From the NCBI RefSeq assembly GCF_028389875.1, contig NC_084672.1, positions 12,081,958-12,145,957 of the forward strand: a stretch of 64,000 nt of DNA, read 5' to 3'. Position numbers and translations under genes: made by a program. Under the pieces are notes generated by a model. That model did no database searches. It was not told the origin of the DNA and saw nothing but the letters and a program-made list of their open reading frames with translations. The DNA comes from Rhea pennata. Lineage: Eukaryota; Chordata; Aves; Rheiformes; Rheidae. This document shows, one piece after another, positions 1 to 56,585 of the stretch (positions within the stretch are counted from its first letter, which is position 1; each line of letters starts with the position of its first letter).

Positions 1-380
1 GGAGAAGAGAAGACTGAGCGGGGATCTTACCGACATCTACAAATACCTCAAGGGAGGGTGTCAAGAGGATGGGGCCAGACTCTTTTCAGCAGTGCCCAGC
101 GATAGGACGAGAGGCAACGGGCACAAACTGAAACACAGGAAATTCCATCTGAACGTGAGGAAGAACTTCTTTACTGTGAGAGTGACAGAGCACTGGCACA
201 GGTTGCCCAGAGAGGTTGTTGCGTCTCCTTCCCTGGAGATATTCAAAACCTACCTGGATGCCATCCTGTGCAATAAGTTCTAAGTGACCTTGCTTGCACC
301 AGGTGATTGGAGTAGATGATCTCCAGAGGTCCCTTCCAACCTCAACCATTCTGTAATTCTGTGGTTCTGTAATATTAATG
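1..380 (+). mobile_element. CR1 LINE 3' end fragment
   Basis: The stretch reads like the 3' end of an avian CR1 non-LTR retrotransposon: a 'gttgcccagagaggttg' block near 203, then 'ccctggagatattcaaaacc' near 231, then 'tgatctccagaggtcccttc' near 318. It ends in repeated ATTCTGT-type units at about 349-372, the usual CR1 tail. It is cut by the window start, so its 5' extent is unknown. Short open frames in it are remnants or chance. CR1 is the dominant LINE of birds and other sauropsids, and this is the best single clue to the host group. Confidence 0.9.
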
Positions 381-2628: not shown

Positions 2629-2823
2629 ATGATGCATTTGGACTCAGGTCGTTGCTGGGCAGGTGTGCTGGCAGGGTTCTCCAGTCAAAACGCTTTTAGG
2701 TTTGGAAATGCCCTTGGTATGATTGGGGTTGCTGGAGATTTAGAATCAACACTGGAATACTGAGAACCTCACCAGAAGTGCTTGCACAGATGTCTGCAGC
2801 CATGGCACAAGGGGTGGCACGAG
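2629..2823 (+). pseudogene. NNT-like relic exon a (domain II helices)
   Basis: After the acceptor 'tgttttag' the frame reads [16 protein letters not shown] and then [12 protein letters not shown], matching the NNT segment with YLGSGLCCVGALAG and [13 protein letters not shown] one-base loss near 2755-2760 brings a TGA into frame at 2761-2763. The next frame continues with PEVLAQMSAAM, the counterpart of PELLAQMSGAM. Counting the lost base, the exon ends in phase 1, which fits the start of the next relic exon. The donor appears mutated ('cggtag'). Confidence 0.87.
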
Positions 2824-3702
2824 CGGTAGACGTATTTCTTATGAAATACATGTGCTCAGTTCATGGCATTTTCATTAATGGTTATTAATTTACTTCTTAT
2901 GTGAGGATAGGAAAACATAATATGTGGCACACTTAACTAATGGAGTTAAGTTGGGGCAAGAAATATATTAATTGCTCATAAATACCTTCAGTTTTCAGAA
3001 CATTTGAATGTTCTGAAATGAAAAAAAATGTTATTTCAAAAGCACTAAAAGAGTTAGGCATTTTTGGAACTTTCCTGTTATTTTTCTCAATTGAAACAAT
3101 TTAATTGTATGAATCCACCAACTATTTCACCTGATCTTGATCTGAATTTATTAATTTGTGGGGGAAAAATATTTTCATTCAGCTCTAATGTTGGTATCTA
3201 AGGCAGGTTTTGTATCTGGCAGTATGGAGGCTGATAGAAATTCCTAAAGGTATTTTTCCAGCACACATATGCAATTGAAACTTTGTGCAATAGGAGAGTA
3301 GGAGGCATTACTTCTTTACCAGTCTGCCACTTAAATTGTGGCATCATCTTCTAATGCATCCAGAGATGTTTTGCCTGTCTTGGTTCCCTACAGGCAAAAC
3401 TTAGTTGAAAAATGTTACGGGTGCATTCTCTCTCCAATACATAAGAAGCTGTGGCTTCAAAAGCACTATTCTGGCTCCATTTCTTACAAGCTGTCATACC
3501 CAAATGTTCTAATGCTGTATTTTTGGAAAAGACTTAAATTAGGTTAAAATTTCCTATAACTATTATATTTCTATTTTATTGTGCAAAAAGGAAAACAGCA
3601 TTAAAAACTAAACGTCCTTTCTTGCTTAACTGTCTGTTTATGCTTTGAGCATGAAATACAATATAATATTTTATCTTGGATCTAAACCATCTCATTTTGC
3701 AG

Positions 3703-3926
3703 GTCTTACCATTGCGAAACAAACTGAAATCTCTGACCTTCTTCAGCTTATAGCTGCGTTTCATAGTCTGGTTGCCTTGGCAGGAGCTCTTACGTGTATT
3801 GCTGAGTACATGATTGAATATCTGCACCTTGATGTTTGCCCTTCTGCCAGTGTTCTCAAAACAGTGGTGTATCTGGGGACTTATATTGGGGGTGAAACCT
3901 TCAGTGATTCTTTACTGGCTTACAAA
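3703..3926 (+). pseudogene. NNT-like relic exon b (domain II helices)
   Basis: Acceptor 'cattttgcag' is followed by an uninterrupted frame of about 75 codons containing [31 protein letters not shown] and [18 protein letters not shown]. These are landmark strings of NNT ([48 protein letters not shown]). The exon starts in the expected phase 1. After ..LLAY the similarity stops, so the original donor has probably been lost. This is the best preserved exon and has no stop inside the aligned part. Confidence 0.92.
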
Positions 3927-4020
3927 GTGCCCTGTTATATGCAATTTAAGATGAAGCTTCCTGAAGTCCCTTGTTGATCCTGGGTCCCCAAATGCAGTTG
4001 AACTCTAGCAGGATGTGCAG

Positions 4021-4072
4021 GAAAAAAAAAGAAAGAAAAGGAAAAAAAAAGAAAAAAAAGAAAGAAAAAGAA
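4021..4072 (+). repeat. Purine-rich (A)nG tract
   Basis: AAAAG/AAAG-rich simple sequence in the intron after relic exon b. A similar tract occurs at about 25549-25583. Confidence 0.8.
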
Positions 4073-4729
4073 ATTGTAGTCTTTATGCAACTTAATTTGA
4101 TGAACTTAGTAGGACTGGTAACCACGTAAGGGCTAGTGACTTTGATTTTGGTGCTGATTGGGAGAGACGTTGACATTAATCTTCAAAGTTGTTTTTGCTG
4201 GATTTTAGTTGTTAGAAAGAGATGTTTGACTACGAGTCCAACTTACACTTTGGACGTAATGCCTTTGGACTAAGATTCTGATGTAAACAAAGAGTGGCCA
4301 GAGAAATTGTAGTAAGAGATCTTCTAGGTCCCTATGGGTGGATTATTTCCTACTGTGTTAATAGACAGCTACTAAAGCTTCATCTTCCAAATAGTTACTG
4401 CTCCCTATTTGCTGCTATAATGTACTCATTTGTCATGAGAAACTGATTTTGCTTTACCCCAGCTGATAAGGATGAAGCAGGAGTAGTCATGGAGTATTTG
4501 GAACTGGAATGCTTCTATTTCTGAAAACTACTTCAAAATAAAATTCCTTCATAGTTGTCTTGGATCTGCAGTAGGCAGATCTTCCAGCTCAGTTAATCTC
4601 TCTTGGGACCAATATCTTTGGTATTTTGTTTCTGTATCTGTAGCTTGTCTTAATTTCCAGTGCTTTAGCAGTAAAAATACTTTAGTAGTAAAGTCAATAC
4701 AGTGTTAGAGCAGCCATGCCTGCTTCCAG

Positions 4730-4890
4730 GTGTACTGAACTCAGGAGCATTTCCTCTATGTGCACATGACTACTTGAATGTTGGTTCGTTGATAGCATCC
4801 TTGGGTAGTATGATACCTTTTGTGTTGGATCCAAGCTACAACACTGGTGTAGTGTGCCCTTTTGGTGCTACAGGTCTCTCTTCAATTACA
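4730..4890 (+). pseudogene. NNT-like relic exon c (domain II helices)
   Basis: Acceptor 'ctgcttccag' and donor 'aca|gtaagg' flank an open frame with YLNVGSLIASLGSMIPFVLD and PSYNTG. It aligns without gaps to the NNT segment that runs from the QG before LLKS to SALSAVM ([26 protein letters not shown]). The end is phase 0, matching the next exon. No stop is seen in this exon. Confidence 0.88.
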
Positions 4891-5521
4891 GTAAGGGTAT
4901 CAAGAGAGAACTTCTTGAACCTCTGCATTGCAAATGCAAGTAATGTAACACTCTTGCACGCACATTTAGCACTTGCTGAAAGCTAGCCACAATGCAGTCT
5001 TGCACACTAGCTGAAAAATTTGGCATAAATTATGAGGAATCAACAAAGCACTTCACAGAATGTTTATGTAGCCCTACAAAAATTCCATAACAAGTCTGCA
5101 AAACCCTGCAGGATCCCACAAACCACACTGCAGAGATCCAAAACGTTTTAGCCAGCAGCGGTGCTGTAAAATAAGCCACAAATGTTTATCTAGTGAGATG
5201 TATATGTAATCCTAGGCATTGCTGTAATTATGGGCTAGTTTTGAAAGAATTAGGAGAGAGTAAGGGTCTTGTATGAAAAATAACAAATATTTTCAGCTCA
5301 TCTTCTGTCTGTGATAAGCTTTTAGTAAAACTTCTAAAGGTTTATCTGCTCACATGACCGAACCCAAAATCCATAAATAATGTCATGGGTAATTGTCTTT
5401 TGCTAACTGTCTACTTGAATTAATTTTTGTTTCCTCTTAGTTAATATTTTAGGAATTATATCATTTCTTGAAATATGAATTTCACTTTTCTTTCCCTTTT
5501 GTGATGTTTGTTAAATTGCAG

Positions 5522-5699
5522 GAACTGATGCTCACAGCAGCAATAGGAGGAGTAGTTATGCCTGTTGTTACTACTGCTCTGATCAGCTACTCTGGCTAGG
5601 CCTTGTGTGTAGAAGAATTTCTTCTTGACAACAATCTGATGGCAATTGTGGGTGCCTTGGTTGATTCCTCTGCAGCTATCCTGTGATACATTGTATGTG
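5522..5699 (+). pseudogene. NNT-like relic exon d, two nonsense codons
   Basis: Acceptor 'ttgcag' and donor 'g|gtaaga' bound a frame reading LTAAIGGVVMPVVTTALISY and then LLDNNLMAIVGALVDSSAAI. The NNT counterparts are [20 protein letters not shown] and [20 protein letters not shown]. The conserved tryptophan codon of the YSGWALC string is now TAG at 5597-5599, and the serine of AILSYIMC is TGA at 5684-5686. Both changes are in the exon frame and are single-base differences from likely ancestral codons (TGG, TCA). Confidence 0.92.
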
Positions 5700-6782
5700 G
5701 TAAGATGGAAACACTACTAGTTTGGCCCCTTCTATGTGAAATGAGCCTAAAGCATCTACTTTGGAAACTTTTTTAAAGTAAGATACTGGAGGGAACTGGA
5801 TGACTAGTTTGGCTGCCAGTTAGAATTTTGCTCATAATTGTAATAAATGATGAAAAGTTACCAGAACTGGGTGAATTTCTGGTGGGTTTCTAGAAACAGA
5901 ATTTGGCAAATGAACTCCTTAGATGCCAAGAACAGCTAAAATCTCAGAATATGTCTGCCCAATACAAAGATGTGTAGATGACTTAGCTCAAGGATTGGAA
6001 GTAATGTATGTTTGCTAGGACTGCACTTCCCCATTTTGCCCTACTTATTAATAGCTTCTTTACCCTTAACTCAAGCACTTCCACATGGCTCCTTAAGCGA
6101 GCTGATCCTTTCAGGTCAGGTGATAGCCATATGGTAGACGAGAGCTTGCACAGCTTTACCTGAGTCAAGCCACTTAGTATATAAACAGTTCCTGGTACAC
6201 TAAATCTGGCATTTGAACTTGAAAAACAACTAGAAAAAGAAATAAGCAGCAATGTGATTTCCCTGCAAATCCAGAAATGTAAGTGAATGTTTTTATAAAA
6301 AGACTAAACAACCTTTATGAAAGGATCTCACCCAGCAGCTAACTTTGAAGAAATGTGCTGTTCCATAACAAGCAAAAGGGGAGATATTAGTTAAACAAAG
6401 AACGTCTTTGTTTCACAAGAGAAAAATGTGAAGGTATTTTGGGGAGGAGAGGAAAGTTGTTTAAAAATGGATAAAAAACCCAAGGTTTTCTGAAAGGCTT
6501 GTCTGAAAAATCTGTGTTCAAATTGTGTCATTTTTTATGCCAAATGGGATGCTGAAGCTTTCCAAAAAGAGAGCAATAGAATATTGAACTGTTGAACTGT
6601 TGCTGCATCAGCTTCAGAGCTTGTTAAAGTAAACTTTAATGAGCTGAGGAATAGTACAGTCTGCTTTCCCAAACAAACTACATGGGAATTTACAGCAAAT
6701 GCGCTATTTATTTTGAGATTCTTTTAATGGAATCAGAACTGTTGTTTTGACCAATATGCTTATTCAATATATTCACATTTAG

Positions 6783-6943
6783 GCCATGAACAGATCTTTG
6801 CCAAATGTCATTTTGGGTGGATATGGTACATAATCTACAGCTGGAGGCAGAAACCCGTAAAAATTTTTGGAACTCGCACTGAAATTGGATTAGACCAAGC
6901 TATTGAAATGATAAAGGAGACTAATTCTGTCTCATTACCCCAA
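6783..6943 (+). pseudogene. NNT-like relic exon e (start of NADP-binding domain III)
   Basis: Acceptor 'cacatttag' is followed by AMNRSLPNVILGGYGT, then TAA at 6831-6833, then STAGG. A one-base gain near 6855 shifts the frame, after which GTRTEIGLDQAIEMIKETNS matches NNT [20 protein letters not shown]. The exon end, before 'gtgaga', shows a further two-base discrepancy. This segment links the membrane domain to domain III. Confidence 0.9.
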
Positions 6944-9900
6944 GTGAGAGTTCAGATATTTATTGTTCATTTACACCATAGTAGGCTTTTCAGGCTACCT
7001 CAGATCTTGCATAACATTCTACATAGTTCACTTTTCACTATTAAACATATCAAATTATTGTTTTCACTTCCTTTGAGTCTATGCAATTGACTATTAAATT
7101 TACAGTTGTACAGATATTAAGATTAAATAGCTCTTCTCTCCTTATATGCCACCTGTGTCCCATTTAACGTTAGCAACTATTTCCCTCTGGGCTTTGCGCA
7201 TGACTACAGCTCTGTGCAATCATTAGTCCACTTCATGCTTAATCATATTTGTTCCTATGTATATGCTTCCTTTTAAAAACTGAGTGTCCTTGCCTTTCCA
7301 GCAGAATAGAATTTCTCTTTACTTTGGAAGCTGTTTTGAAAGCCTACGGCTGCCAAGTCAATTACATGCAGACTACCTGAGTGTACACTATGAAAGCATT
7401 GCCCAGCTTCACCTCACCAGTTTTACTTTTGCTCTCTTTCTTTGCAGCTAACTTTCACCCTTGATTTTAAGTGTTTCAAGACAGAGATTTTGCTTTTGTG
7501 TCTGTTGCATGCCTGTGACTATTATTATTGTAGTGAAGTAGCAATTTTGTGCTAGGCCTTATACAAACATGCAAGAAAGACTAAAAATCTTGCAATAGAG
7601 AAATTAAGAATATAAGCTAAAAATGAGGTTATAACAAATACTTGGACACAAAATGCAAGATTATTATGTGGGTTTTTTTTTTCTACCAACATGTTTGCAA
7701 TGGAACTTTTTGTTCAGATATAGTCAGAAAATACACCATTTTTGTGATTTGCTATCATGAATGCAGAATGCCAGCCTGTCACTAGTGAATCCATTTGATA
7801 GCATCCTGGATGCATGTGGCAACAGTGAAAACTGAATGCTTCCTGATGTAGTGAATTCCAACCATAACTGATATTATAGATCTAATGAAAAACTTCAGTT
7901 AACTAGAAATAGCACATTTGATAATGTTGCATATGTCTTGGCAGTATTATGATCCTCAGCTTGTTTTGTAATGATATAGCATAGTACAAAGACCTTTCAA
8001 CATGAACCAGGTCTAGGTAGACACCAATCTCGATTTCATCAGTTTTATGATATTTGTCATTTTTCTGGAATTTTGAGAACTTACTCTTGCACTTTTGCTG
8101 TTTGTTCCTGCTACAATGGAAGTCAGACCTGCTTGTTATGACTGCTAGACCCTAAAGAATAAGTGCCTTGCTTTCGATTTTCTATGAACTCTACTGGGAG
8201 TTTTTTTCCTCACCTGAAAAAATAATGAAGACCTTAAGGCTAAAACTGGGGATAGAGAAATACAAAGTCCTCGGGCACACCTAAACTTAAATGGATTTTA
8301 CAACTCTGAATGGTATTGTCATATAGCAAAGAAGCATGAAGTGAAGTTACTGAAGTTATTTCATTGGTTTTCCCTTTTCTTGTTAAGTCTCATACCTCCA
8401 AAAAGACCACTTGCTTTTCATGTCCAAAAAATGAGTGACCCACCATTGCTAAAATTTATTCAGGCTAATCATCTACTGAGTCTGATAAGATATTTTACTA
8501 GGAATGGCAAGTCTTGGCCAATATTCAATTACAATTTGCAACAATAACAAAAAAAAGTTTGTGTCATGATTTATTAGGTATTTTCTACATATAGCTGTCC
8601 TAGAGAATTTAAAACTATTTACTGTGATCAGGAAACGTTCTGTTTTCACACATCTCGGGTCTGCAGGCCAGCATAGCCAGTGAGCTGAAATGTGCCAGTT
8701 AGTCGTCTTACAATAACTTCTTGTGGATTATTATAATGAATTTTTTGAAGGTGTGTGAACAAAAGACCGTGGTTCCAAATATGTAAGAGAAAATCATTAA
8801 ATTAATAGTTGTTTTACAGTGCGCTGCCTGAAGCTACCAATCATTTGTTATTTAGCCAGCTGGGCTGTTCTGCAGCTCAGCAGGAGCCCCAAGTATGGGC
8901 CTAGATCTTCCCCTAAGTTGCAGGAGTTAAAAGCGCTATATATACCTATAATTATAATCAAGCAAATTTCTCCAGCTGACCCAAGAATACAGTTGGCTTC
9001 TTTCAGATGCAGCTGCATGCAGCCCTTAGCCAAATGGATGGGTCATCGTGATGAGGGGCCTCTGAAAGGAGAGGGGATGATATGGAGAAAAAGCAAGAGA
9101 ACTGCCAAAGTGCCTCCCCCAGTAAAACAGGCGACTGTAGATGGTAATGTTAAGTGCTGGTTTTTTGTACAGTCACATTAAAAAAATCCAACACAAAACA
9201 CTCAAAGTCCTAGAAATTTGCTATTGGTCATGATGCTTATGTGCTCTTCCCCAGGAGATTAAAGAAATTATTTTTAATAGGTCAGAAGTTTTACTTGCAA
9301 CAAAATTATAGATTCCAAATAGAACACTGCAGTGTTAAATATGTGAAAAAAATCAATGTTTGGGATGTTAATTATTTGTAGTTTTAATTATCACTCAATT
9401 ATCTTTTTTGGATTTATTGCTGTGTAAGTCCTAAGTTTGTGTGCATGGCAAATCATTCGTAATATATTCTACACTGTATGCATAAGGAAGGCCCTAACAG
9501 CTGTGACCATTTCTCCAGAGATGCGTATGATCTGTAACATGTTCAGATTGCAAGAGAAGAGCAAAAGTGGCTCTACTGCCTCTGGGCCATCCTCCTCCTG
9601 CTGAGGCTGCCAGTCATTAATCCAGGACCTCCAACGGCCACTGCTGACAGCCAGAGAATTTGGTAGGTTCAGCAGCGCCCTTTCATCACCTTACAATGTG
9701 GTTCTGTAGGGAAACTGATGCAAGCCAGTACCTAGAACTTTCTCATTTCACTTCAAACAAACAAAACCCTCCTCTAGATGCAACGTAGATTTTTAGGTTT
9801 AGGATTAAAACTATCCCTCTGCAGTATAGTTTGCTCTCACATGTCCTCTGTCATCTGCCTGCAGCAAATGAATTTTGTTGGTTTCTTAAGTGATGAACAA

Positions 9901-10000
9901 GATTCTTAAGTCACTAAGTCAGAGAAACATGTTGTTGTTACTGGAGTGCTATGGGGTGCTTTAGGTGGAATGCTTCTGCATGACGATAACCTTTCTGAAG
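6944..10000 (+). other. Retained 3-kb intron of the NNT-like relic
   Basis: No coding exon was recognised between relic exons e and f. The 120-codon open frame at 8819-9181 has no family resemblance and no clean splice context, and is taken as chance. Confidence 0.5.
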
Positions 10001-10080
10001 GTTTGGGAAGGAGCCTTTGTGCAGCCAAGGCCCAATATCCCATTGCCAATATGGTAAAATTGCTTAATGAACAAAGAAAA
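10001..10080 (+). pseudogene. NNT-like relic exon f (NADP(H)-binding motif)
   Basis: The frame reads GLGRSLCAAKAQYPIANMVK and then LLNEQ. NNT has GYGLCAAKAQYPIADLVK and MLTEQ here. Two extra codons (RS) interrupt the glycine-rich nucleotide-binding turn, which would be expected to harm NADP binding in a living enzyme. The acceptor is weak ('ctgaag'). Confidence 0.85.
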
Positions 10081-10573
10081 AATCAGCTATGTTGTAATGA
10101 TACTCCTGATCTTCAGCTAGCAGGACCTGCCATATGTGTTTTCATCAATATATGACTGAATCTAATCTCAACAGAGGGAAGCCAAATTACCTCAGCTAAG
10201 GAGCTGATGTTATCTTATTTAAATAAGCTAGTCACAGAAAATGTAGTAGTTTCATTAACACATTGTTTACTTTTTTTTTAATAATTTCGGCAAGGAACTT
10301 CTGAGGTAATTTTTGAAGGACAGAGGGCAATGTGCAGAAGTTCTTTACTTCAGTCCTCTCCTCCTGCTCTCTCATTATAAAAATGCTAGATGCTGTTCCT
10401 CAGGATGTACTTTTAGGAGTGTTTGGTTCTCTTTCTGCATCTGGTACACAAATATCGCTTTGGAATCAAACTGCTTTTACAGGTGTGTGGGTTTTTTTGG
10501 TTTTTTTTTTTTTTTTTTTTTTCAGTTCACAGCTGAACATCTTCACCTCCACCTTTTTTCCCCTCTTTTTCTG

Positions 10574-10695
10574 TGTTTGGTGTTCACCTGTAGCAGGCCA
10601 TATGCCAAGGCAACTAAATGTGTTGCTGGTTAAAGCCAGTATACTTTGTGGTGTTGTATTACAAAAACTGGACAGCATAAATGAAGATTTTCCAG
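10574..10695 (+). pseudogene. NNT-like relic exon g (domain III)
   Basis: The frame reads PVAGHMPRQLNVLLVKAS and then LDSINEDFP, ending at donor 'cag|gtaagg'. NNT has PVAGRMPGQLNVLLAEAG and MDEINHDFP. A one-base loss near 10586 separates the upstream FGVH from PVAG. The acceptor region is a long T tract with no clear AG at the expected place. The phase at the donor joins perfectly to the next exon. Confidence 0.9.
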
Positions 10696-12048
10696 GTAAG
10701 GCCTAAAATATTAACTGCTTGTCTTGTAATCAAGTCACACCAAATAGTTACATTTATGTCTTACGGTGAATGATTAGAATTTTTTTTCTAACTGGCATTT
10801 TGGTACTTTACATTTTGGCTAGAGTGGTTGAATTAACATTAAGTAATATTTACTTAATAACTAATTAATTTAAATTATTAAAGACTGAAAAAAATTAAAC
10901 TGAAAAAAAACCCTAAGAATCAAACAATTGGTTTACCTAGATAATAATGGTAATATCTACTGAGTTTTGCTTGATATATGTAAAATAGACCTTTTTCATC
11001 AAATACATACCTGTGTGTTATCAATACAGCTAATATGGTCTGGATTCATGTAATATTCTGAAATATCAGACAAAGGCATGTTCACTCTTTGTTTCACAGC
11101 AGTTATTGGGAATTATGCTACTGATTCTAATGAAAACACAAAGATTTTTTTTTTTTTTTTTTAATGAGCTGAGAGCATCATTCCAGTAACTTCCAAAAGC
11201 CATCTATTTTTTTTTATCCTTGTTGATGGGTATCAACAGTCAATTTTTCTTTCCCCAACCATCATAAGGTAATTCCTTATGGCTATTCCTTGGAACCTTT
11301 CTTTATATGGGTATAGTTGAAGAATGGTCTTGAACTGTTATGCCAGAATGTGTAAGTTGTAGAGCAAATCCATTAAATGAATAAGCCACCAAGTATTAGG
11401 ACCAGATGGTATTCACCCAGAAATTCTGAGGGAATTCAAATATGAAACTGCTGAAATGTTATTAGGGGCTTGTTGCACCAACCATTCATGAGTACTGTGG
11501 TAGCCAGAGCTTTTAGGAATTACTTGGAAATTCTAGAACTGTGTTCTACCATCTTAACCCAAGATGTGGAATCTCTGGACCTACGATGGCCTCTGTGCAA
11601 GTGGATTGCTTCTCACATGCACAGCCATGGAAATGAGGCACTGAACAGAATTGTAGAATTAGACTGTAAGTGAATGGTGTTGAAATAAACTACATGTTAT
11701 AATATTATGGAAGTCGTACTTGGATTCCACATTATGTGCTCTATTTAGCAACCTCACAAGGGCCTTGCGTAAGATCCCGTTAAATCTTAGGAGTATTTAT
11801 CTTCATGGAATCTTACACGGAGAATGCACAAAAATATTATAATAGCTTTCATTAGCACATGTAACTGCCAAGATTTGATTCTAGATTTGAACACCAACAG
11901 ATGGACCTAATTTTTTCATTTAAACAACAAACTGTTATCGTTTATTGTACGCTTGATTAATGTGCTTTGGTGTCGCCTTGATAAAAGAAAAGCCACTGCT
12001 TCAGGTTATAAATAATACATTTTGCAATATATTTCCTTTCTGTTTCAG

Positions 12049-12134
12049 ATATGGACTTGGCTCTGGTCATTGGTGTAAATGACATGGTGAACTCAGCAGC
12101 ACAGGAAGATTTCAGTTCTGTCATTGGTGGCATG
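12049..12134 (+). pseudogene. NNT-like relic exon h (domain III)
   Basis: Acceptor 'tgtttcag' is followed by DLALVIGVNDMVNSAAQED and then SSVIGGM. The NNT counterpart is DLVLVIGANDTVNSAAQED and NSIIAGM. Splicing from the previous exon would keep the frame (..FP-D-MDL..). The donor now reads 'atg|tgagtg', one G short of 'gtgagtg'. The following NNT segment (from PVLEVWKSKQ) was not found. Confidence 0.9.
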
Positions 12135-14394
12135 TGAGTGCTGCAACTCTGTGAAGCAGAACAGGTACTTAAACAGCCACAGAATTCAGTACAGTATTAA
12201 TTATGGATTGTACTTGTCTCACAAGGAAAGCACCATCATGTTAGGGAAAAAAAAAAGATGAATAAGTGTTTTTTCTAAATTGACAACTCATATGCAGGAT
12301 GAATATACATAGGCACATGTTTGGGCACTGCCTACACAGAGGGGCAGAACTTTGCAGTCCTGGGGAAAGAAATCCTGGCCATTTCCATAGGACCTTCCAT
12401 AGGAACAGCTGCAGCATTGCACATTGTCCTGTTGCCTTGAATCTGCTGCATTAGCTTTCATGGACTTCAAAAGATTCAAGACTGGATTGTATCTTAATTG
12501 ATTTTATTTTTTCAATGGATTTTCCTTCTAAAATTTAAAACAAAAACAGGCTAAGCTTACATTAGAGATTTTCCTACGTTTAGGAGTTTGGCAGTATAGT
12601 TTTGTTGGCAAATCTAGCAGCCAATCCAGGCATGGGGTTTAAACCAGATTAAGAATACAATATTCAGAAAAAAGGAAGCTTTGGACAATGCAATCATTTC
12701 TACATTATGGTTTTTGCTAATATCGTTGTGACAAACAAAAAGGCGACTGTTTTTCTACTCTTAACTGACATGGGTATGCATATTGAAGATGGTACTCTGG
12801 GGCGTGCTTAGACCTGTGTGGAGCTGAGAAAGTGATGCAATCCAATTGCTGGAAGGAGTAGACTCAGTGTTTTCATGAGGTTTCTGCAAATTGAAGTGTA
12901 TCAGTTTGCTTCCTTATCTTCTGTAAATAGAAAAAATTGACATCACAGCACTGATTTTGCTCAAGGAAGTGTGTGAGCAGAGCTAGATAAAATGTTTCAG
13001 TTGAATAGAGAACTACTGGAAAATGCAGGTTCAGGTCAACTGCAATTTATGCTGAACTTAGCAACTATTTAGTCATGAAATGGAAGCCCCCAAGATAATT
13101 TTTGAAAGAAATAAAACATTTTTGATGTTTTTGAAATGCAGCATTTTTATTTACCATTAACAACATCTGAAATTAATTCTGTAGTTTCAGCTTGAGCAAA
13201 CTGTTTTGCTGCACCTAAAAATATTGTTCTGTTGTGGGAAAGTCTGAGAATACTTTTGTTTTTATTTCACTTTTTTTAAGTGAAAAGGAGCCCAATTCTG
13301 CTCAGTTCATTATCATCTGTCTCCAAAGCAAATGATACAGATTCAGAAATTTTTGCACTAAACCACATCTTTAGGCTGTGAAGGTAGCGTTCAAGAAATG
13401 TAGTAGGACTCGGTGATTACGAGAGATTCAGTTCAAAATGTAGTGAATCCTATGAATCTTTTTTACATTATTTTTTATGAATTGAGTAAAAGTAAGGTTT
13501 TTTCCATATGGAAATCAACTTTTTAAACTCATGATGATGAAAGCCTCATGAGTGCTAAAGTACGTTACTACATGACTTGTAGACATTAGCAGATACAGAC
13601 GTGAAACACGACTAGACAGTACATAAAATCAGTGTGGTAGTATGTGCGTTGGAGATGGTACTGAGACATACAGACATAAAAATTAGGAAGAAAAAATCTT
13701 AAAACATAGTGGAAAAAATGAAAGAAGTATAGGAATTCCATGTTATTTACCTCACAGATGACTTGTTTTGCTAGATTAAGTTATATAATATTCCAGATCA
13801 CAAGCACAAAAACTTAGAGTGAAGGCCAGGCCTTATCTCAGATTGGTAGGATAGTAGGTGTATTATAAAGTTTGGTTACATTGATAGCTTTACATGCTAT
13901 TATTTGCAATATAATGATACTAAAATGTAGTAAATGTTAGCATGAAATCAGGAATTTGAAACTATTAAAATATTATTAATCAAAAAAGCAAAACATCAGA
14001 GAAACAGTATAAAACTAATCTATTTTATAAAATCAGTAATCAAAAGAGCAAAGCAAGCATCACTTTGCATCATATACAGCATGAAATTTCCATCAACGGT
14101 GCTGGAGTCTTGCATCATCTGAAATGTGTGCCAGATGTTTTGCCTACCTCCTCATGGCCTGTCACATCCATGAGCTGTACAGCTAGGCCCCTCTCACATA
14201 GGCAAGATTCTGGCCTGAGTTCTGGATCTGAATTCAGCTGAGTTAGAAATGAAGTAAAATCCCTGTCATTCTGTCAGCATTGCTTAGAGTCATACCTAGT
14301 GAGCATGAACATATTGAAGAATCACTTGAAGAAGAAAGGAAGATTACCTAGCTGAAACTGGAGGCTCTTTGAGATGCGTATGCACTTTCACACA

Positions 14395-20973: not shown

Positions 20974-21203
20974 TTATTCTTTCCCTGCACAACACTTAGC
21001 ATTTTTAATCAGAGTGTACATAAATGAAAAGAAAAAAAGGAGATTGTCATATTGCCCTTTGTAGTTCTCTTTCAAAATCTCCTGATGATAGTCTACAAGG
21101 AAATAATAAATTGCTTCTATTGTGGAAAGGTATGTATCTGGCTTTCCCTTTTGATGACGCCAAAAGCAAGTTTTTCTTGTTTTCAACTCAATTTGTAGCA
21201 GCC
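20974..21203 (-). CDS. DTWD1: DTWD1 last coding exon
   Basis: Acceptor 'cttgacag' is followed by [20 protein letters not shown], then [16 protein letters not shown] and [19 protein letters not shown]. It stops at TAA (20974-20976), which overlaps an AATAAA on the minus strand. Confidence 0.96.
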
Positions 21204-24032
21204 CTGTCAAGAAAAAGAAATGACGTAGATTAGATGACGCAGATTGGATAAAGCATCAAACAAATCTTTGGTTGTGGTTTGCTTTTGGCTTTGCTGCTAG
21301 TCTGCATTAAAATCAGTTCTCTATCTCTCTCTGTATATGTATATATCTGTTTTTCATCTATAAAATGGGGGCAATAACATTGTCCTTTATAGATCACATT
21401 GAAATTTGATAAAAAAAAAAAAAATGCTGTAGGAGCTAGGTTAAAATCTGCACACTCGCATCTAAAATGTACAGGGAGCCTTGACTTGACTGAGTGAACT
21501 GCAGTTTGGATGCAAGGTCTATCACATGGCAAGAGTGAAATGCATACCTATTACTGGTCAGTGTTCATAAAGTGATGTATAAACTTCATCTCTTACAAGG
21601 TTAATACTTTTGAGTGTAAAACAGTCCTTCAGACTACCATAGCTTTTCTGAACTCTGATGAGGAATATTTCTATTTGCTAAAAGCTAGACACAATTTATG
21701 CTTGTTAAATAACTGTAATAATCACACTTGGATTACCCAGGACCAGAGCCTGGCCAGTAATTTATTTCAATTTTTTTTTTTAGCAATTAAACATTTTCTA
21801 GCTTGAGATGAAAGCAAGATATTCATGGCATGTATGGATATGTATGGCATATGAGAATCTCCTATCTCCTATAGTCTCTGTGTATAATTTCTTATTTGGT
21901 ATTTCTTAAGATACACAAATTACTCAAATCATACTATTGAATAACCGCTTTGTAAACAGGAGTGGACAGCTGGATTATGAAGAATAGCATATATTACTAT
22001 CAATAATAAGATCAGTTTGTAAAGTTATCTTTTTTTTAATGTTAAGATACAAAATTTGCATCTTGGGATGGTTTAGTATCAGTAATTAACATTGTCGAGA
22101 ATTACCTAGAAGTTATAGACAGGTAAGTTTGGATGCTTTTCCATATGGCCCAAACTCAGGAACCCAAATTGGTCTATAGCCCAGAGCTTGGAAGTCTATC
22201 CTTCTTACTTTCAAACTACATTTAAATTTATAGTGTAATGGCAAGATGGACTTAGCCATTTACTCTGCAGTTAATAACATATAACTTGTACAGTAAGAGA
22301 AATCTTCTACAGCATTTTTTTTAAAATTTACATCACTGAATTTACATGCTATTGTTAGCACTCCAAAACTTAAAATTCAAAATAATATAGTCTATTGCCT
22401 CTAATAATCTCACACTTAGTATAGTTTTTACACTACTTTAACTACATCGGTTTGTTTCCCACAGGAAATAAACTTCTCACAGGAGGTTTCAGTGCCTACC
22501 TTTTCTTACTTTGAACCCTGCCTTTTCTTTCTTTGAACAAGGTTAGCCTTAGATCCAGTAGAAAAAAATGGTGAAATCTCAGCCCTAATGAAAGTGAAAA
22601 CTCTCATCAAATTCAATGACGTTTCCACTTTAAGAGTAATGGACAAAATTTAGAGGAAGATTCCTCCAACATAATTTATCACCTATTCATGGTTTGAATA
22701 TAAACGTAAGTTCATTGAACGCGAGAGCACTGATGCTACTGAGCTTACTGCACATGCAGGATCAGTTAATTTCCAACATAGAGTCTGAGTTTTGGAACAA
22801 ATACATGAAGGATTAAGGGTTACAGCTTACTGAGCATATTTCCATCATCTTTGTACTGTATGTGTACAGCCAAAGGCTATGTTTTATTACAAACATTGGT
22901 TGTTCTTATGAAAGCAACTCAAACTATGAAGGAAATCAACTTTTTTTTTTTTTTTTTTAGCATCCACATACTTTGAGCTCATTAGAAATAAACGTTTATG
23001 TAAATCTAAGATCAAGCAAGAGGAAAATACAGCTACCTTTAAATCCACTTGGCTATTGAATGTAAATAAAATTTTCCCTTATAAAAGTTATCCTCCTGTA
23101 TATATGCCTTCTGGCAGACAATAGGATTATTAGAGACATACAAACACTCCTCCACCTTTCCCTCATCCTCCATTCTTTTTCCATACATCTAATTATCACA
23201 AAACAGTCCCTGTGCTACTTCATTATAACAACAGAATGCTCAAACCTTCAAGATCATATTTAGTCATATTTAGTCACTGATGTTACATCTAAGGGAGACT
23301 CAGATTCTTATCAACAAAATGTATGTACATTATCCATTTTAAACACAGATGAAGCCTTTTGTTTACTCTAGGTCTTCAATCCCATCTTGGTTTTATGGAA
23401 TATTTGTATGGTGGATTGGGAGATTTACTAGTTCAAGAAATACTAGTGTGCTGGAACGAGTAGTTATGGTTTGCTCCTAAGGCTTTTTTTTTTTTTTTTT
23501 CCTTCCCTTCAAGAGGCAAGGTACTTACTCCTGCCAATGTGCCTATCCTTATTTTAATTATATCATTTAATTTACTACAAGAAGTCTCGGTACCTTCTTG
23601 AAACTGGTACTTCAGAAAAAAATTCCACTCCTTTCCTAAGTAAATGTCTACTTTCCCAACTTGTGTGAATAATTTAACAATTTAAGGTGAAGCAGAAGGG
23701 ATTCGCATACCTTGGATTCACCTTGCCTCTTGTGCTGTTGGCCCCCTGACTATATACCAAACTCTCAGACGTAGAATACAGTCCATGCTATTGTGAAAAG
23801 ATTTTAGAAACCTATAACAGAATTTTCACTTTGCTTTGCATTGTACACCCAAAAGTTTGATTTTGAGGGAAGAGGAGAGAGAAAAATGTGAGAAGAGGGT
23901 AAGAGCTATCAGAAAAAAGAGGCTGAAGAGAAGCTGGTCTTAGAGAACATCACCTTTCTGTTCTCAAATATCCTGGCTATGCAAAGGTATAAAGGGTACT
24001 ATTTTCTTGCAGAAATAAAGGCAAGCACAGAA

Positions 24033-24068
<36 letters not shown>

Positions 24069-27000
24069 AAAGCAGAGGTATTATATACCCTTCTACAAGG
24101 GAAGCTATACGCTGATATAAGACATTTGGCTAATACAAAATAGCTCTAATTAGAGAAAAAATACCACAGCAATCTGTTTCTTTAACAACCACGTTGATGT
24201 TGCCAATATGCTTCATCACTCATATGAGAGAGTAATCGTTAAAACTAAATATAACTGCTTCCTTTCTGATCTAGTGATTGTTTCACTTCTAATGAAGTGA
24301 TCAATCCTAAATATTATCAACTTTCAAATATTTCCTGTCTTTAATGCAACTGATTTGGTTTTGCTTTCTAAAGATATATTATGCCACTTCTCTAAGAAGA
24401 TACAGAAGTATTTTGTTTTGTCCAAGTCTTCTAGATTGCCTATTTTTAAGATTGATAGAGTCAATTGCTTTCTCTTGCAGTGCAATTAGCTAGATTTACT
24501 CCATATATCAGTCCAGGCTTACAAAACACAGGCTTTATTTTACATTTTCTTGGCTTAATTCATTAATGGTCTCCATCCAGTATTTCTCATAACTTCATCT
24601 TTTTGAATAAGCACTGCAGTAGCTTCTTATTTGGAATTGTAAACATTCCTTTTTGAACTTTAATATCTCAGGAATATTATGTGGATGATGGCTTAATTTG
24701 TAGGAGAACTGAAAAATCACACAGTCCTCTAGTTTTCATGTGCATATGATACGCACATTCCTTCAGTTTATGTCTGAGGAAACTTCATCCCTGTCCATCC
24801 TGAAAGGCAAAACTGCTATCTCTAAAAGGTACAAGAATGCAACTTATGTCCTGTAAAAAAGGAAAGCGATGAATGCACCAGATGTATACCTGCTGCATGG
24901 AGGGTAGAATTTTCCCTTGGGCTGGATAAAAGAGAGCCTGATTCACATGACACCAGTCTCACCTCCTAGAGCACTTCTGAGAGGAGTGGAAGGTACTTAG
25001 GGAAAGAGAGGACTGGAATACGACTGAAACAGATGAAGTTCTAGAAATGAGGGAAGGGTCCACTGGATCTGCATGCACATAGGCCAACTGGAAAAAATGG
25101 TGTAAGAGCTAAAAAGTAACAACAGTCACTAAATCTTGGCTGATACACTGCATAAGCTTCTACGGAACCTTCAGTTCCCTTGGTTGACTGTTAATTTTCT
25201 AAAGTTTCATCCTTTCTATAAAAGTTCTAAATACTTTACAGTAAATTATAAAATGCAGTAACTCTAGTCTTTACAGTAATATACAACACGCAATAACTCT
25301 AATCTTTACAGTAATACTTCTGTTTATTTGATAGAGTATGTTTTGTGTTAAACTAAATATTTGGTAACGGAATTTTAATTAGCCAATAAGTTATACTAAC
25401 ATGTGGGACTCTTTAATCAGCTGGCTACACAGCAAGGCAACATTCATCTTTCATGTAAGAAGCCTGTGAAAGCACTTGCAGGAGCCAGTGGAAAGCAGGC
25501 ACTACTAAGCAGATACATATATATTAGTATTTTCAAACTCCTACCTCAAAAAAAAAAGAAAAAAAGAAAAAAAGAAAGAAAAAGGAATGCCACTGCTAAA
25601 TTGGTTTATATTTTGTGGTTTTCTTCAGAATACTTAAATGTAACCTTCTTTAATAAACCTAAGACAAAAAAAAACTTTGCAGAAGTCTTAGGTATTTGCT
25701 TTCAAAGATTGGAGGGTGTTGGGGGCAGGCAGGCATTCCTCTTTTGACTGGATAATACTAGTGTCATTGAAGTGACTATGAAACAAAGAACTGTACTAGA
25801 AAAAGGAAAAAAGCACCTTTACCAGTGGCCTCTTTGCCTGGGAACACAAAGCAAACCCAAAAATTCTCCTGGCCTTTACTGACTAGGAAATGAAAAAACA
25901 AGTCCAAGATAGTGACCTACAAAGGAAATTTTTCTGGCTTCCTGCACAGTTCATTTAAAGGACTACTGTTTTTCTACATTGTCTAACATGACAGCTTCCA
26001 GTCCGTGAGATTCAGGAAATCTGTTCCAAAAGACAATCGGGGAAAAGAAATGTAAAGAAATGCTTTCTTAATAGTAGTTTTATCAATTAGTGAAAAGAAA
26101 ATATGTGATATGAAAACAAATGGAGTCTTGACTCAGGAATACAGCATTGAAATACTGAGTATTTCATGACTACACAGCTCTATGGTAACATATGCACTTA
26201 TAACATGCTGAGATCTGTTACACATATATACATATATTTGATTCAATCATTTTTGTAGCAATAAAACCTCAATTTCAACTTTATTTATTTTTTTTTACCT
26301 TGAAGTCGTTCATCAGTTATTATTTTGTTAGTTTGATTCCAGGTACTGTCAATAAATATAATTTTCTTCAGTCTAGTTCCTTCACTCCTGTTGCTTGAGA
26401 TGCATTCATTTATATTTTTTTCTTCTTCAGGGTCTATTTTTGCTTGCTTAAGAAATGGCTCTCTGGAACAGCCATCATCATTGTCATAAACACCTTTCTT
26501 AGCATTTTTTTGGAGATGGAAAGCAATATCTTTCACTGAAATTGAATTGGGGCCAGGAAAGATAAGTGCTATCTACAAGAAGAAAATAAAGAAATCAGAG
26601 TCATCAAAATATGATACTTTTATAAAATACTAAGAATTGTTTCAATAAAGAAAAAATAAAAATCTTTCTTATCTGCACCCACAAACATTTAAGACAGTGA
26701 AGAAGTAAGAGAGCATCTCTTATAAAATATTCTATTGTCTAAAAGCATAAGGGATTGTATTAAAATAATGAATATTAGAATATTTTATTAATGTAATCTC
26801 ATGCCTCTACTACTGATTCTTTCTGTAAAAGAAAGTTTTTTTCATCTAAACAACGGTGTCAGCAAAGAGGTAGTTTGAATTTCACTTGTCACTGTAGAGT
26901 ATGGACCAGGAAGGCCATAAAGAATAGTTTCTATCCTATTCTCATTCACAGCTTTGGGGTCAGAAGAAATAACCTGTTTTGTCCTTCTGCAGCTCTCACA

Positions 27001-29278
27001 AATACGTTTTATCAAAAAGACTAGCGACTGCCTTTACTTATGATACAGTATTTCTTCGGTAGCTTATTATTGCATTCACAGTCTGTGACTTGGAAAGCTT
27101 GAGCAGTATTAAGTCACTGCAACCTCTTCCCATTTTGCCTACCTTCTCCATCATAGTTTCCTTTTTTCAGCTCCTGGCCTCATACCTCCTATTCTTTCCT
27201 TGATATTTCATTATCTGAAGAAAGTACCCTCTCCCTGAGCTATGCACGTTATCCCCCTTTTCAGGTAATCAATGAAAGTGTTAATTATGACATCAGATGT
27301 GTTAATGGTAGGTTTTAGATTAATCACACCATTCAAATGTGTTTTTAATCTCACTTTCTTTTTCAGGCTCTATGCTGACTCAGGTAGACAACAGTTTCTC
27401 TGTAATAGTGAATGTTATAAATTTTAAAGAAGTTTAAATCCTGCAGATGATGAGCAGGACACCTAACAATGTTCAGCTTGCATTAAGTTGAATACTTTCA
27501 CAGATTTAGATAAAATAATTCTCATAGGACACAAAAAATCAAATTATATGAGGTGCTAGACATGAGAAACTCAAACTGGTTAGATGGTGATACAGTATTT
27601 TTCAGCTTTGGCGGGCAGTCCATAACAATACTTGTGGACATGTGCTTTGAGAGAACTCAAACGGGTGGGTTGGATTAATATACTATCGCTCTCCCCCCTC
27701 TCTCTCTTAGGGGACTGCAGTACCAGCTGCAGCAGGGAGTACAGAAGATATCTCAGCATTTCCCCAGCGCAAAGCCCTGTTATCTACATAGTATTTCTTA
27801 CTTCATGCCTTTTTTCTTCATATTCTGGAATGCAAGGGTATTTATAAATTGTAACATCATCAGGTGCCAGGAGCTTAGCATGCACAGCAGTGCTTTTGCC
27901 ATCAGTTTCATTTGGGTGTTTAATAATGTCAATCTTCAAAGGTAACTACAATAAGAATAGAAATAAGTAAGATGTATGATCATATACATGTCTACGTAAA
28001 AAACAAACAAAATCCAGGAGAAATAGCTATGGTATATAATTAACACATACTTGCTTCAAATAGTCTCACTGAATGTTTTTGGTTAAATAGGCTTAAAAAT
28101 AAACTAAAAACAAATGAAAAAAACCACTTCTCACATTCTCTCCATTCATGTAAATAGCTAAGTATACAATGAATACAATATGGAATGGTGTAGTAGTAGG
28201 GTAGTAAAAGCTCTAGTATTAGCATCAATCAGGTAAAGAAGATAAAAGTTTAAATTTAGTAATATAATGGTCCCAAATATGAATATGCATCTGTATTGGA
28301 TATTCACCCTATTGCAAAAATGGCCAAACTTAAGTTAAATTAACGAAACCCAATAGGTCAAATTTCCAAAGTACTTCTAAAATATTTTCACAATGCTTTC
28401 AAAGTGTCTTCAAAATGCATTTTTTGCTCCTAGGTGATTTTGCAAAATGTAGCTCAGTCACATTTGATTTTTTTTCCAATATATTTTAGCTGAAGAACAC
28501 TACATTTTAGAAATATTTATTTTTACTTTAGGAGTGGTTATCTGAATTAAACACCCTTTACATTTAGGAATGCATTTTAGCTCACATTTTATGTAAAATT
28601 CAGCCTTGGTTATGGGCAGATGATACCATTTGTTTCAGTACATTCTGTTCTGGCCAGAGTTCTTACGACTGAAGAATGAAGGTAAGAACAGTGTAAAGAA
28701 GCTTTTAAAAACTAAGTGAAAACACTGTCATTTGTGTGAGAATCCCAGTGGTTTCAGCTGATCCTTTTCATCTAGAACATACATAAATGTTTATGGTGAC
28801 TGGAACATTGTCAGTGCTTGTACATTTAATTCCTTAAATAAGAAGGATAATAATTTTATCTAATTGTAGTTTATTCATACTTGATGGCTACTGTGTTAAA
28901 GGTAAGTGCTCATAAAAAATGAATCAGAAAAGAAATAGTCACATATACTAGCTGCTAACAAGCAGAAGAATATTACAAAAAAAATACGTAAGAGAGATTA
29001 ACCTTCACAACCGGAATTTCTTTGGTAGGGACAGTTTCAACAGGAACAAAGCATGTATAACAATAAAACATCCTTGAACTACTGCATCGTGGGCACTTTG
29101 ATCTCCCACTCTTTTTTGCCTTTTCAAGTACTTCCTGCGATGCTAACTGTAATTGTTGAAGTGGGTTATCTTGAAACGATGATGGAGTCTGCAATTCTTG
29201 ACTTTCCAAACATTCAGTATTTCTTTTTAGTCCTTGAGAGTTTTCTTCATTTAAAAGTGTAGACGAGTTTAAATACAT
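20974..29278 (-). CDS. DTWD1: DTWD1, tRNA-uridine aminocarboxypropyltransferase 1 (complete, 4 coding exons)
   Basis: The coding sequence is the complement of join(20974-21203, 26299-26572, 27802-27945, 29003-29278), 924 nt giving 307 aa. Human DTWD1 is 304 aa. All junctions have GT/AG sites and keep the frame. DTWD1 adds the acp group to a D-loop uridine of certain tRNAs (acp3U20), using S-adenosylmethionine. Visible landmarks are a zinc-knuckle-like pair CPRC and CYTC (Cys62, 65, 73, 76), the family DTW-type motif [10 protein letters not shown] (Asp215-Ile224), and the C-terminal block [17 protein letters not shown]. The C-terminus ends at ..CCAGKE, a few residues shorter than in human. The gene diverges from FAM227B across a CpG island, and a 5' non-coding exon probably lies in that island. 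The first coding exon begins six bases before the ATG. Confidence 0.96.
21204..26298 (-). other. DTWD1 intron, 5.1 kb
   Basis: No nested exon was recognised. It contains poly(T)/(A) tracts (22941-22959, 23486-23501, 24038-24067), and at about 25251-25316 a diverged tandem repeat containing 'aactctagtctttacagtaat' and 'aactctaatctttacagtaat'. The AATAAA at 24014 followed by about 30 As looks like a retroposed mRNA end. Confidence 0.6.
26299..26572 (-). CDS. DTWD1: DTWD1 third coding exon with the DTW motif
   Basis: Acceptor 'tcttgtag' is followed by [20 protein letters not shown]. The exon includes a variable acidic linker and the catalytic-family string [19 protein letters not shown], and ends in phase 1 at 'caag|gtaaaa'. 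Confidence 0.96.
27802..27945 (-). CDS. DTWD1: DTWD1 second coding exon (residues 93-140)
   Basis: Acceptor 'ttgtag' is followed by [20 protein letters not shown] and ends near [10 protein letters not shown] at donor 'gaa|gtaaga'. The exon is 144 nt, phase 0 on both sides. Confidence 0.95.
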
Positions 29279-29284
29279 GGTTAG
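29003..29284 (-). CDS. DTWD1: DTWD1 first coding exon (5' UTR tail plus residues 1-92)
   Basis: On the minus strand the acceptor 'ctttcag' (29286-29285) is followed by CTAACC and ATG at 29278-29276. The exon carries [20 protein letters not shown] and the CPRC...CYTC cysteines, ending at donor 'aag|gttaat' in phase 0. Confidence 0.95.
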
Positions 29285-30542
29285 CTGAAAGAGACAATAT
29301 GTTGCACCTGATAAATACAGATCTGATATACAATGAACTAATTTACTGGAAATTCTGTTTGATCTTATTTAGCAAAAAAATACTCAAAGTAGATACCCCC
29401 TATACTGAATCAGATGATTTTATTCTTTCTTTTATTACAGCACCAAGAACTCCGAACAGATTTCCAGACTGCATGATATAAACAGGTAGAAGAAATTTGA
29501 GATTTGCATTCTTAATGCAAGTATATGTACAATCATCATTTTACCTAGATAAATTATCCCACTCACTTCACTTATGTAACAGAAATATAAATTTTTAGGA
29601 TCAGTATCTTTTTTGTTTGCTGTTCCTTTGTCTGCTGTTTGTTGCAGAAAATACACTGGTAGACATTGATTGCTACCTGCATGAGCTGTCCCACTAATTT
29701 TCACCAGGACTACTGACAATGGAAGAAATGCCTGCAAGACAGAAGTCCATAATAAGAGAAAAGTTAACTGTACAATTTTAGATCTCTATCCTGAAATTTA
29801 TTGTGTGTAGGCAGACCAAACTACCTGAATAAAATCCCTACTGACAAAACTTTGTGAGATAAAAGAAAAATTAGACTGAAATCTGGCTTTGGGGCTGGTT
29901 TCAGTCTAGACTCACTCTGCAGGTTCATATTTATTTTTAAAAAATTGATGGATTAACATTTTTTTTTCCAAGGCTTGCTTCAGGACAAACACTGACCCTC
30001 TGCAGCTGGCATAAAATTCTACTGTGTTCTCTGAGTAATGAACCTGAGTAATGACTGTATGTATGCCCACACCTGATCCAGATCGAATTAGCACTGTGTG
30101 CAGAGATTGATATTCCCAATCACAAATATAGTGAAACCTTTCAGACTAGATTAGCCAGGGGCCTCTCTAGTCTTCAAAGCAGCCCAAGTGCTGGAGATTG
30201 AGCGGCCTGCAGTAGTTACGAACTGCCTTTTGCGTTCTGTACTGCATCACTTAAGATGAGAAAAGTCATTCGTATTATTTACTTTCAGTTACTTTAAGTT
30301 TACTTTTTCATGTCACAGATCACACTTGTGAAATGATGTAACAAAACAGTCATGTTTAGCAAAAACAATAATTTCTGTGATATGATCCAGAGTGAAGTGT
30401 TTAAATAAAACCAAGTGTAGTTTAATTGAAAAACAGCAAAAATGAAAGACTCAGCTAACTCCCCCACATAAATTTAAAATCTATTCCAGAAAAATTAGCT
30501 GCTATTTTCTGGTAAAGCTGAATACTTATACTTGTTTTGATT

Positions 30543-30679: not shown

Positions 30680-31760
30680 ACTACACCCTGTGTCTCAATG
30701 AAAGCTCGTCACGCCTAGACCAACCCTACAACTACCGAGATTCCTCCCGAAGCGGAGGGGGCAAGAGGCCCTGTAATTTGACATCCGTTCCCGCCCGCCA
30801 ACGGATTCTTCTCAACACAGCGTCTCATGGCACTCATGTTCAGCCACGATGCCCCCGAAGCGCTTTCGCTGCTGATGCTGACGGGGGAGAGGCTGCTCTA
30901 AGGGCACAGGAAAGCCGCAGTGGTCTCCAAACAACTGCCCGCGAAGCAGGGTGAAAGCACACACGCAGCACGCTTCGCACAGACGGGCACTAACAACGTG
31001 AATGCCGATTCCACCCACGCTTAATCTCCCAGGTGGCTCCCGCTGCAGCGTACCCTCCACACTCAACTACACGAAACCCGAAATCTCAGCCAGGGCCCGG
31101 GACTTTCCCGTGAAGTTCGCCGCAGCGCCACAGCGCCCGCCGGCCTCACACGGACCGGCCGCCGCGTCCGGGCTGCTCGCTGCCTTCTGCCCGGCCGCTG
31201 GCACGGCAGGGCCGAGGCGCTCCGCGACCCGCGCCTGCCCCGGGCCCGCCCGCCGCCGCGCGCCCTCCGCCGCGCGCCCTCCGCCGGGCCGCAGCACCCG
31301 CCGCTGCGGGGCTCCGCGCCTCACCCGCTCCCTCGGCTCCGGCCCCGCCGCCGCCGCAGCCCGCCCGGCTCCTCCCGGGCTCCGCGGCCCTGCGAGCCCC
31401 CGGAACGGAAGTGTTTGGGCTCGGCCGCCGCGGGGCCGGAAGAGCGCGCCCGGGAGAGCGCTTTTCCGCGGGGGACAGGCCGTAGGGCGCTGTTGCTAGG
31501 GGCCCCTAGCAACGGCGCGCGGGGCCTGGAGGCAGCGCGGCGCGGCGCGGGCGGCGGCGGCGCTGTGTGCTCCCCGCGGGCGCCTCCGAGCCCCTCGGCT
31601 CCGGGGCCGCGCCTGCTGGCCCCAGCTCGGGCCTGCTCCCCGCTGAGGCGGCCGCGGGCCGCGCCGCGCGCCCGCCCGCAGCCTCTGTGGGGCGTCGCCA
31701 GCGGCCGCGCGCGGAGGCGCCGCGTCGTCCCACCTTGTGGTGTTTCCACGTTTTGTGCCC
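30680..31760. promoter_or_regulatory. CpG island, bidirectional promoter of DTWD1 (-) and FAM227B (+)
   Basis: GC content and CpG density rise sharply from about 30680 and peak at 31090-31730, in strong contrast to the AT-rich surroundings. The island lies between the 5' ends of two divergent genes. It holds an ETS/GABP-type site CGGAAGTG (31406-31413), a second CCGGAAG near 31436, and a palindrome with two RFX-type half-sites (31492-31513). No TATA box is evident. Long open frames inside it are a result of high GC. Transcription starts cannot be fixed from sequence alone. Confidence 0.85.
31492..31513. promoter_or_regulatory. 22-bp palindrome with two inverted CCTAGCAAC RFX half-sites
   Basis: 'gttgctaggg' + 'gcccctagcaac' is a perfect palindrome. 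Each arm contains CCTAGCAAC, the half-site of the X-box bound by RFX factors. Spacing between half-sites is wider than in the classic X-box (GTTGCC-n-GGCAAC), so binding as a standard dimer is uncertain. Confidence 0.6.
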
Positions 31761-56390: not shown

Positions 56391-56585
56391 TTAGGATATT
56401 GCCAGAGGAAGAAAGTGGGATGCTCTGTGTTCTTTCTTTGTTTTTTTACCTTTCATGGGAACACCTTTGTGGTTTAGTGTGACAAACATCTCTTTTCCTT
56501 TGTGTGTCCATTTTGCAGAAGCATATGTATTATAATGGTTTTCTTCAATCAGTTCTATGAAGTTGCAGTCCTCATTGCATACTTT
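56391..56585 (-). CDS. FGF7: FGF7 last coding exon
   Basis: Acceptor 'ctcaacag', 64 codons and a stop. It carries [18 protein letters not shown] and the basic [10 protein letters not shown] stretch, with no break in frame. Confidence 0.97.

Follow-up and report, generated by a model that had tools for sequence, protein, structure and literature searches.

What is a broken copy of the transhydrogenase gene NNT doing beside FGF7, in a bird whose intact NNT lies beside FGF10 on another contig? We addressed this question in a window of 64,000 nucleotides from Rhea pennata, which is the whole stretch of DNA analysed (positions 12081958-12145957 of contig NC_084672.1, here C10, in a genome of 1.27 Gb and 180 contigs). 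The relic at the start of the window is very probably the dead, unprocessed remnant of a second NNT ('NNT2') that arose together with FGF7 in the early vertebrate genome duplications (2R). Below, its structure, surroundings and divergence are given in turn, and the other possible origins are weighed against them.

A tblastn search of the window with ovine NNT (1086 amino acids (aa), PDB 6qti) returned ten plus-strand pieces, collinear over aa 622-1039 and positions 2629-12170, at E values from 3e-23 to 1.5e-5. In the same search, the next match (E 3.5) falls within relic exon C; outside the relic E is 4.6 at best, and in the reversed window 2.7. Frameshift-aware alignment resolves the pieces into eight exons. 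After trimming, 244 of their 376 codons agree with sheep NNT and four are in-frame stops. Four of the six relic pieces submitted match Pfam PNTB, three of them above the curated cut-off. The joined pieces match NNT in the PDB at E 2e-123, and the PDB matches listed are what we take to be ovine NNT plus human and bovine domain III.

The eight exons, all on the plus strand, are spaced about 0.5-3 kb apart. Exon A (aa 622-686, 2629..2825) has frameshifts at 2752 and 2805 and keeps its acceptor AG and donor GT. Exon B (aa 687-760, 3703..3923) keeps the acceptor AG and has lost the donor, its frame being open to 3974 with no alignment beyond 3923. Exon C (aa 765-817, 4730..4890) retains both the acceptor AG and a donor GTAAGG. 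Exon D (aa 819-877, 5522..5699) is interrupted by stops TAG at 5597 and TGA at 5684; its acceptor AG is kept and a donor-like GTAAGA lies one base off. Exon E (aa 879-931, 6783..6943) contains a TAA at 6831 and frameshifts at 6846 and 6932, between a kept acceptor AG and donor GTGAGA. Exon F (aa 932-956, 10006..10080) has lost its splice sites at the mapped place, while exon G (aa 960-998, 10576..10695), frameshifted at 10588, has a donor GTAAGG and an unplaced acceptor. Exon H (aa 999-1038, 12049..12164) bears a TGA at 12135 and keeps the acceptor AG and donor GT, so the end of the relic moves from 12134, as given in the preliminary description, to about 12164.

That description had seen eight ordered NNT exon relics with their introns, and the search and the alignment bear this out, but the relic is larger than claimed and extends upstream of the window. 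Eight further exons, covering aa 54-572, lie at C10:12064453-12080564 within the 50 kb of C10 preceding the window; among them, exon 9 is recognised over 11 codons only, and the alignment is poor for exons 1 and 8. The whole relic thus spans 30 kb on the plus strand (C10:12064453-12094127) and lays out, in order, 16 of the 19 living exons for aa 54-1038. For the living exons 2, 5 and 11, as for aa 1-53 and the last exon, no counterpart was found in the window and the 50 kb upstream. At the boundaries of living NNT, 21 of the 32 splice dinucleotides are kept across all 16 exons, and 11 of the 16 in the window. This count is the analyst's reading, in which the unplaced acceptors of exons 9 and G are scored as lost and, among several candidate boundaries, the one in the exon frame is taken.

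The living NNT lies on the minus strand of C61, a contig of 82.5 Mb, at 65982013-66022253, with 19 aligned exons free of stops and frameshifts. C61 is presumably Z-like, NNT and FGF10 being located on the chicken Z. Two genome searches, each scoring the 12 best candidates, found only the C10 relic and the C61 gene and no third NNT locus. Because 16 of the 19 exons stand in order and most of the splice dinucleotides are kept, the relic is an unprocessed, intron-bearing copy of most of NNT with the exon breaks of the living gene. It is dead, as nine stops in 722 aligned codons (four of the nine in exons 1 and 8, where the alignment is poor) and several frameshifts disable it.

The locus also holds repeats. 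By the analyst's reading, the end of a CR1-type long interspersed nuclear element (LINE) without a Pfam match occupies positions 1..358 of the window (+), inserted between the relic exons for aa 537-572 and aa 622-686. It belongs to the first of two CR1-type copies in the same orientation (C10:12081170-12082315 and C10:12058550-12059681), which are about 22.6 kb apart, share 97.5% identity across 1146 bp and look young for CR1. The second copy is placed about 4.8 kb upstream of the first recognised relic exon.

The surroundings of the two NNT loci match each other. FGF7, found by FGF family matches and identified by PDB 1qqk (E 1e-48), lies at C10:12138366-12139031 on the minus strand; its exon matches at window positions 56409-56588 and 56964-57074 face the relic. 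The distance from the relic end is 44.2 kb, agreeing with the earlier figure of about 44 kb, and the relic (+) and FGF7 (-) are convergent. On C61, FGF10 (65820963-65825158, +; identified by PDB 1nun, E 2e-58) and living NNT (-) are likewise convergent, about 157 kb apart. The claim that the relic is oriented to FGF7 as NNT is to FGF10 therefore holds within this one genome.

A wider block is visible around these pairs. Four HCN-type genes (PF08412) are found, on C61 at 65.24 Mb, C10 at 22.82 Mb, C27 at 0.408 Mb and C41. The C61 gene is 0.58 Mb from FGF10, the C10 gene 10.7 Mb from FGF7 and the C27 gene 40 kb from a gene that its peptide marks as FGF22-like (both within C27:408094-448871), the last pair making a third arm of the FGF7/10/22-HCN paralogon. 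We take the human counterparts to be HCN1/FGF10/NNT at 5p12, HCN4/FGF7 at 15q and HCN2/FGF22 at 19p13.3. FGF7/10/22-type genes on contigs that also bear HCN genes are what a genome-duplication block looks like. No NNT was found near the FGF22-like gene in the 30 kb read (C27:440001-470000; best E 0.55).

The divergence of the two NNT loci is deep. Introns alignable to the living locus had been named as the mark of a recent segmental duplication; in the DNA comparison, 16 matches comprise 12 exons and four repeat-type matches (CR1 by the analyst's reading), and unique intron sequence yields no alignment at E 1e-3. For the finer comparison, we used 587 core codons, omitting exons 1 and 8, aa below 779 in exon C, below 965 in G and above 680 in A. 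At four-fold sites, 124 of 197 differ between the relic and living NNT, where the base make-up sets saturation at 69%. The Kimura two-parameter (K2P) distance there is 1.66, with a 2.5% bootstrap bound of 1.08. The relic is too diverged at silent sites, and its introns too unalignable, for the copy to have been made within modern birds.

For birds, PMC2946954 gives neutral rates of 2-3.9e-9 per site per year. At those rates, the silent-site age is 212-415 million years (My), or 138-270 My from the 2.5% bootstrap bound, with no upper bound. As yardsticks from the same genome, FGF7 and FGF10 show codon-position differences of 29:24:54 in 95 codons and differ at 9 of 18 four-fold sites, and six HCN pairs of 45-46 codons differ at 43 of 85 four-fold sites in total; both are too small for calibration. 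By these sequence counts, the relic is no less diverged than the presumed 2R pairs.

The relic was constrained for most of this time. It differs from living NNT at 146, 102 and 326 first, second and third codon positions, and without the stop codons the counts of 143:98:324 are far from 1:1:1 (chi-square 152), so it had long been under purifying selection. The Nei-Gojobori (NG86) estimates are 0.23 for dN and 2.2 for dS. Since the second-position distance is only 0.20, the unconstrained share of the relic's history is at most 24% (97.5% bound 39%). Conservative replacements number 47 of 124, against a neutral expectation of 35.5. The nine stops imply that a neutral distance of 0.166 (0.076-0.314) has built up after the gene died, or roughly 42-83 My at the rates given above and 19-157 My when the stop-count error is included.

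The protein counts place the relic almost equally far from the bird and mammal genes. In the core, identities are 394/587 for relic and living NNT, 387/587 for relic and sheep, and 538/587 for living and sheep. Living and sheep NNT differ at 49 core sites; there, the relic sides with living NNT 19 times, with sheep 12 times and with neither 18 times. The full set of 722 codons behaves alike (461, 453 and 664 identities in the same order; 21, 13 and 24 of the 58 differing sites). Assuming equal rates and a bird-mammal split at 320 My, the 19:12 counts reject a divergence of the relic from its living counterpart 100 My ago (p = 0.0016) and are compatible with 250 My (p = 0.58 against 250/640) and with at least 320 My (p = 0.28).

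The 2R origin is favoured by these lines together: the FGF synteny and orientation, the HCN paralogon, the unalignable introns, the near-saturated silent sites and the near-equal distance to bird and sheep NNT. The ohnologue origin put forward in the preliminary description is strongly supported by them, but the tree that was to prove it does not do so. The split likely preceded the bird-mammal divergence, on the basis of the synteny more than of the tree.

Several points count against a 2R origin. The near-saturated silent sites yield only a lower bound of the age. The protein tree, built on 354 columns with an outgroup of 27 taken from the 80 bacterial homologues, weakly joins the relic with living NNT at 96/75, though the alternative grouping of living and sheep NNT is not rejected (p-AU, by the approximately unbiased test, 0.174) and the relic branches off roughly midway between living and sheep NNT (0.030 and 0.040 along the path). 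This tree, whose only vertebrate NNTs are the living bird and sheep ones, carries a long-branch warning and an unsettled bootstrap, and its bacterial PntB outgroup is very distant. In addition, relic-sheep changes fall at 43 of 141 sites conserved in bacteria (14 of 56 under the strictest setting) and at 85 of 226 variable sites, the classes being drawn from 80 bacterial PntB homologues with 9 of the 376 sites left out for too few homologues. Such similar rates point to decay as the source of much of the protein difference. The protein divergence corrected for decay has ratios to the bird-sheep one of 0.91, 1.49 and 1.97 by threshold, and each interval includes zero, too imprecise for an age. 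Lastly, DTWD1 and FAM227B intervene between the relic and FGF7.

The strongest rival is a small-scale duplication of NNT that is old but belongs to the line of reptiles and birds, made after the mammal split and before modern birds, landing by FGF7 and later decaying. The joining of the relic with living NNT in the tree would be expected from it, the 12:19 split fits an archosaur age too, and the lower bound of 138-270 My leaves room for one. It has against it the four-fold sites near saturation and the unalignable introns. Moreover, the probability that a copy comes by chance to lie no more than 100 kb from FGF7 or FGF22 and in matching orientation is about 1.6e-4 (400 kb of 1.269 Gb, halved), a figure computed after the fact. 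We regard this origin as improbable.

Less credible still is that the locus remains functional, for example as a transcribed non-coding gene or an FGF7 regulatory element. Several surviving splice sites would agree with it, and the nine stops in 722 aligned codons and the several frameshifts would not. Nor would the stops in the window, which number four against 4.1 expected if the differences there are neutral. No sign of a present function was seen in the sequence, and we consider one quite unlikely.

A recent segmental duplication of avian NNT would account for the retained introns, as a segmental copy carries them along. The differing four-fold sites, the unalignable introns and the rejected 100-My split speak against it, and the relic is barely nearer to living bird NNT than to sheep NNT. 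Its likelihood is very small. A retroposed (processed) pseudogene or a chance resemblance, for neither of which any support was found, is practically dismissed by exons 0.5-3 kb apart with most in-window splice dinucleotides kept and by ordered matches reaching E 3e-23 against 2.7 in the reversed control, respectively.

For the 2R origin, the course of events can be proposed as follows. An ancestral NNT-FGF7/10/22-HCN block would have been copied in 2R, the relic being the NNT copy on the FGF7 side. For most of its existence, that copy may have specified a functional proton-pumping transhydrogenase of the mitochondrion; redundant to NNT, it would then have been lost on the lineage leading to this genome. 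We lean, with less assurance, towards a broader proposal: 2R left vertebrates with two NNT genes, of which the one beside FGF7 worked as a second transhydrogenase for about 400 My and was lost only near the time when modern birds arose. Intact or newly decayed versions of it could then exist in other birds, crocodiles, turtles or amphibians, and it could be the same gene as the fish nnt2.

NNT controls the balance of NADPH and NADH in mitochondria; mice and people that lack it handle oxidative stress differently and have an altered metabolism. Should a second NNT have persisted in amniotes until fairly recent times, the single-copy NNT is a derived state, and lineage losses become testable against physiology. 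The relic also represents a late ohnologue loss that is still legible. With the dead duplicate and its survivor in one genome, the age, the duration of constraint and the time of death can all be estimated.

The rest of the window holds the genes between the relic and FGF7. DTWD1 exons lie on the minus strand at 20977-21255, 26288-26572 (Pfam DTW) and 28976-29368, the last without a Pfam match and named by the analyst's reading. A plus-strand exon at 42849..43097 matches Pfam FWWh and, located between the relic and FGF7, is what we take to be FAM227B. Between the two genes, at about 30700-32000, long open frames overlap one another on the two strands in a cluster that looks G+C-rich by eye; it is perhaps a CpG-island promoter shared by DTWD1 (-) and FAM227B (+). 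About 80 kb upstream of the relic, an AAA-ATPase exon like SPATA5L1 by the analyst's reading lies at C10:11983368-11984555 (-). In human, the gene next to DTWD1 is presumably ATP8B4, and the gene order around DTWD1 may be rearranged in this genome relative to human.

Among known systems, the nearest are the living NNT on C61 and ovine NNT (6qti), which share the protein and the exon breaks with the relic, the C61 gene also being convergent to a gene of the FGF7 subfamily. The relic is unlike them in being broken, in agreeing at only 66-67% of core residues and in lying beside FGF7, not FGF10. The block hosting both NNT and the relic is the paralogon of FGF7/FGF10/FGF22 with HCN4/HCN1/HCN2. Among the papers listed on nnt2, NNT ohnologues and synteny, the FGF-HCN paralogon and NNT pseudogenes, no title or abstract opening described a second NNT or a relic beside FGF7.

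In teleosts, at least, the assumption of a single vertebrate NNT is mistaken. Excerpts of PMC12907870 name the turbot gene ENSSMAG00000021288 'nicotinamide nucleotide transhydrogenase 2' (nnt2), and a gene list in PMC10606920 includes zebrafish nnt2. As a named second vertebrate NNT locus, the teleost nnt2 resembles the relic; unlike the relic, it is expressed in fish, and it may be either the ohnologue from the FGF7 side or a copy made in the teleost duplication. A parallel in its fate is sox15, a 2R ohnologue pseudogenised in amniotes as the excerpt of PMC8244163 has it. Both were lost in some amniote lines, and the relic, a different gene, is still legible exon by exon. Most likely, the relic belongs to this known class of late-lost ohnologues.

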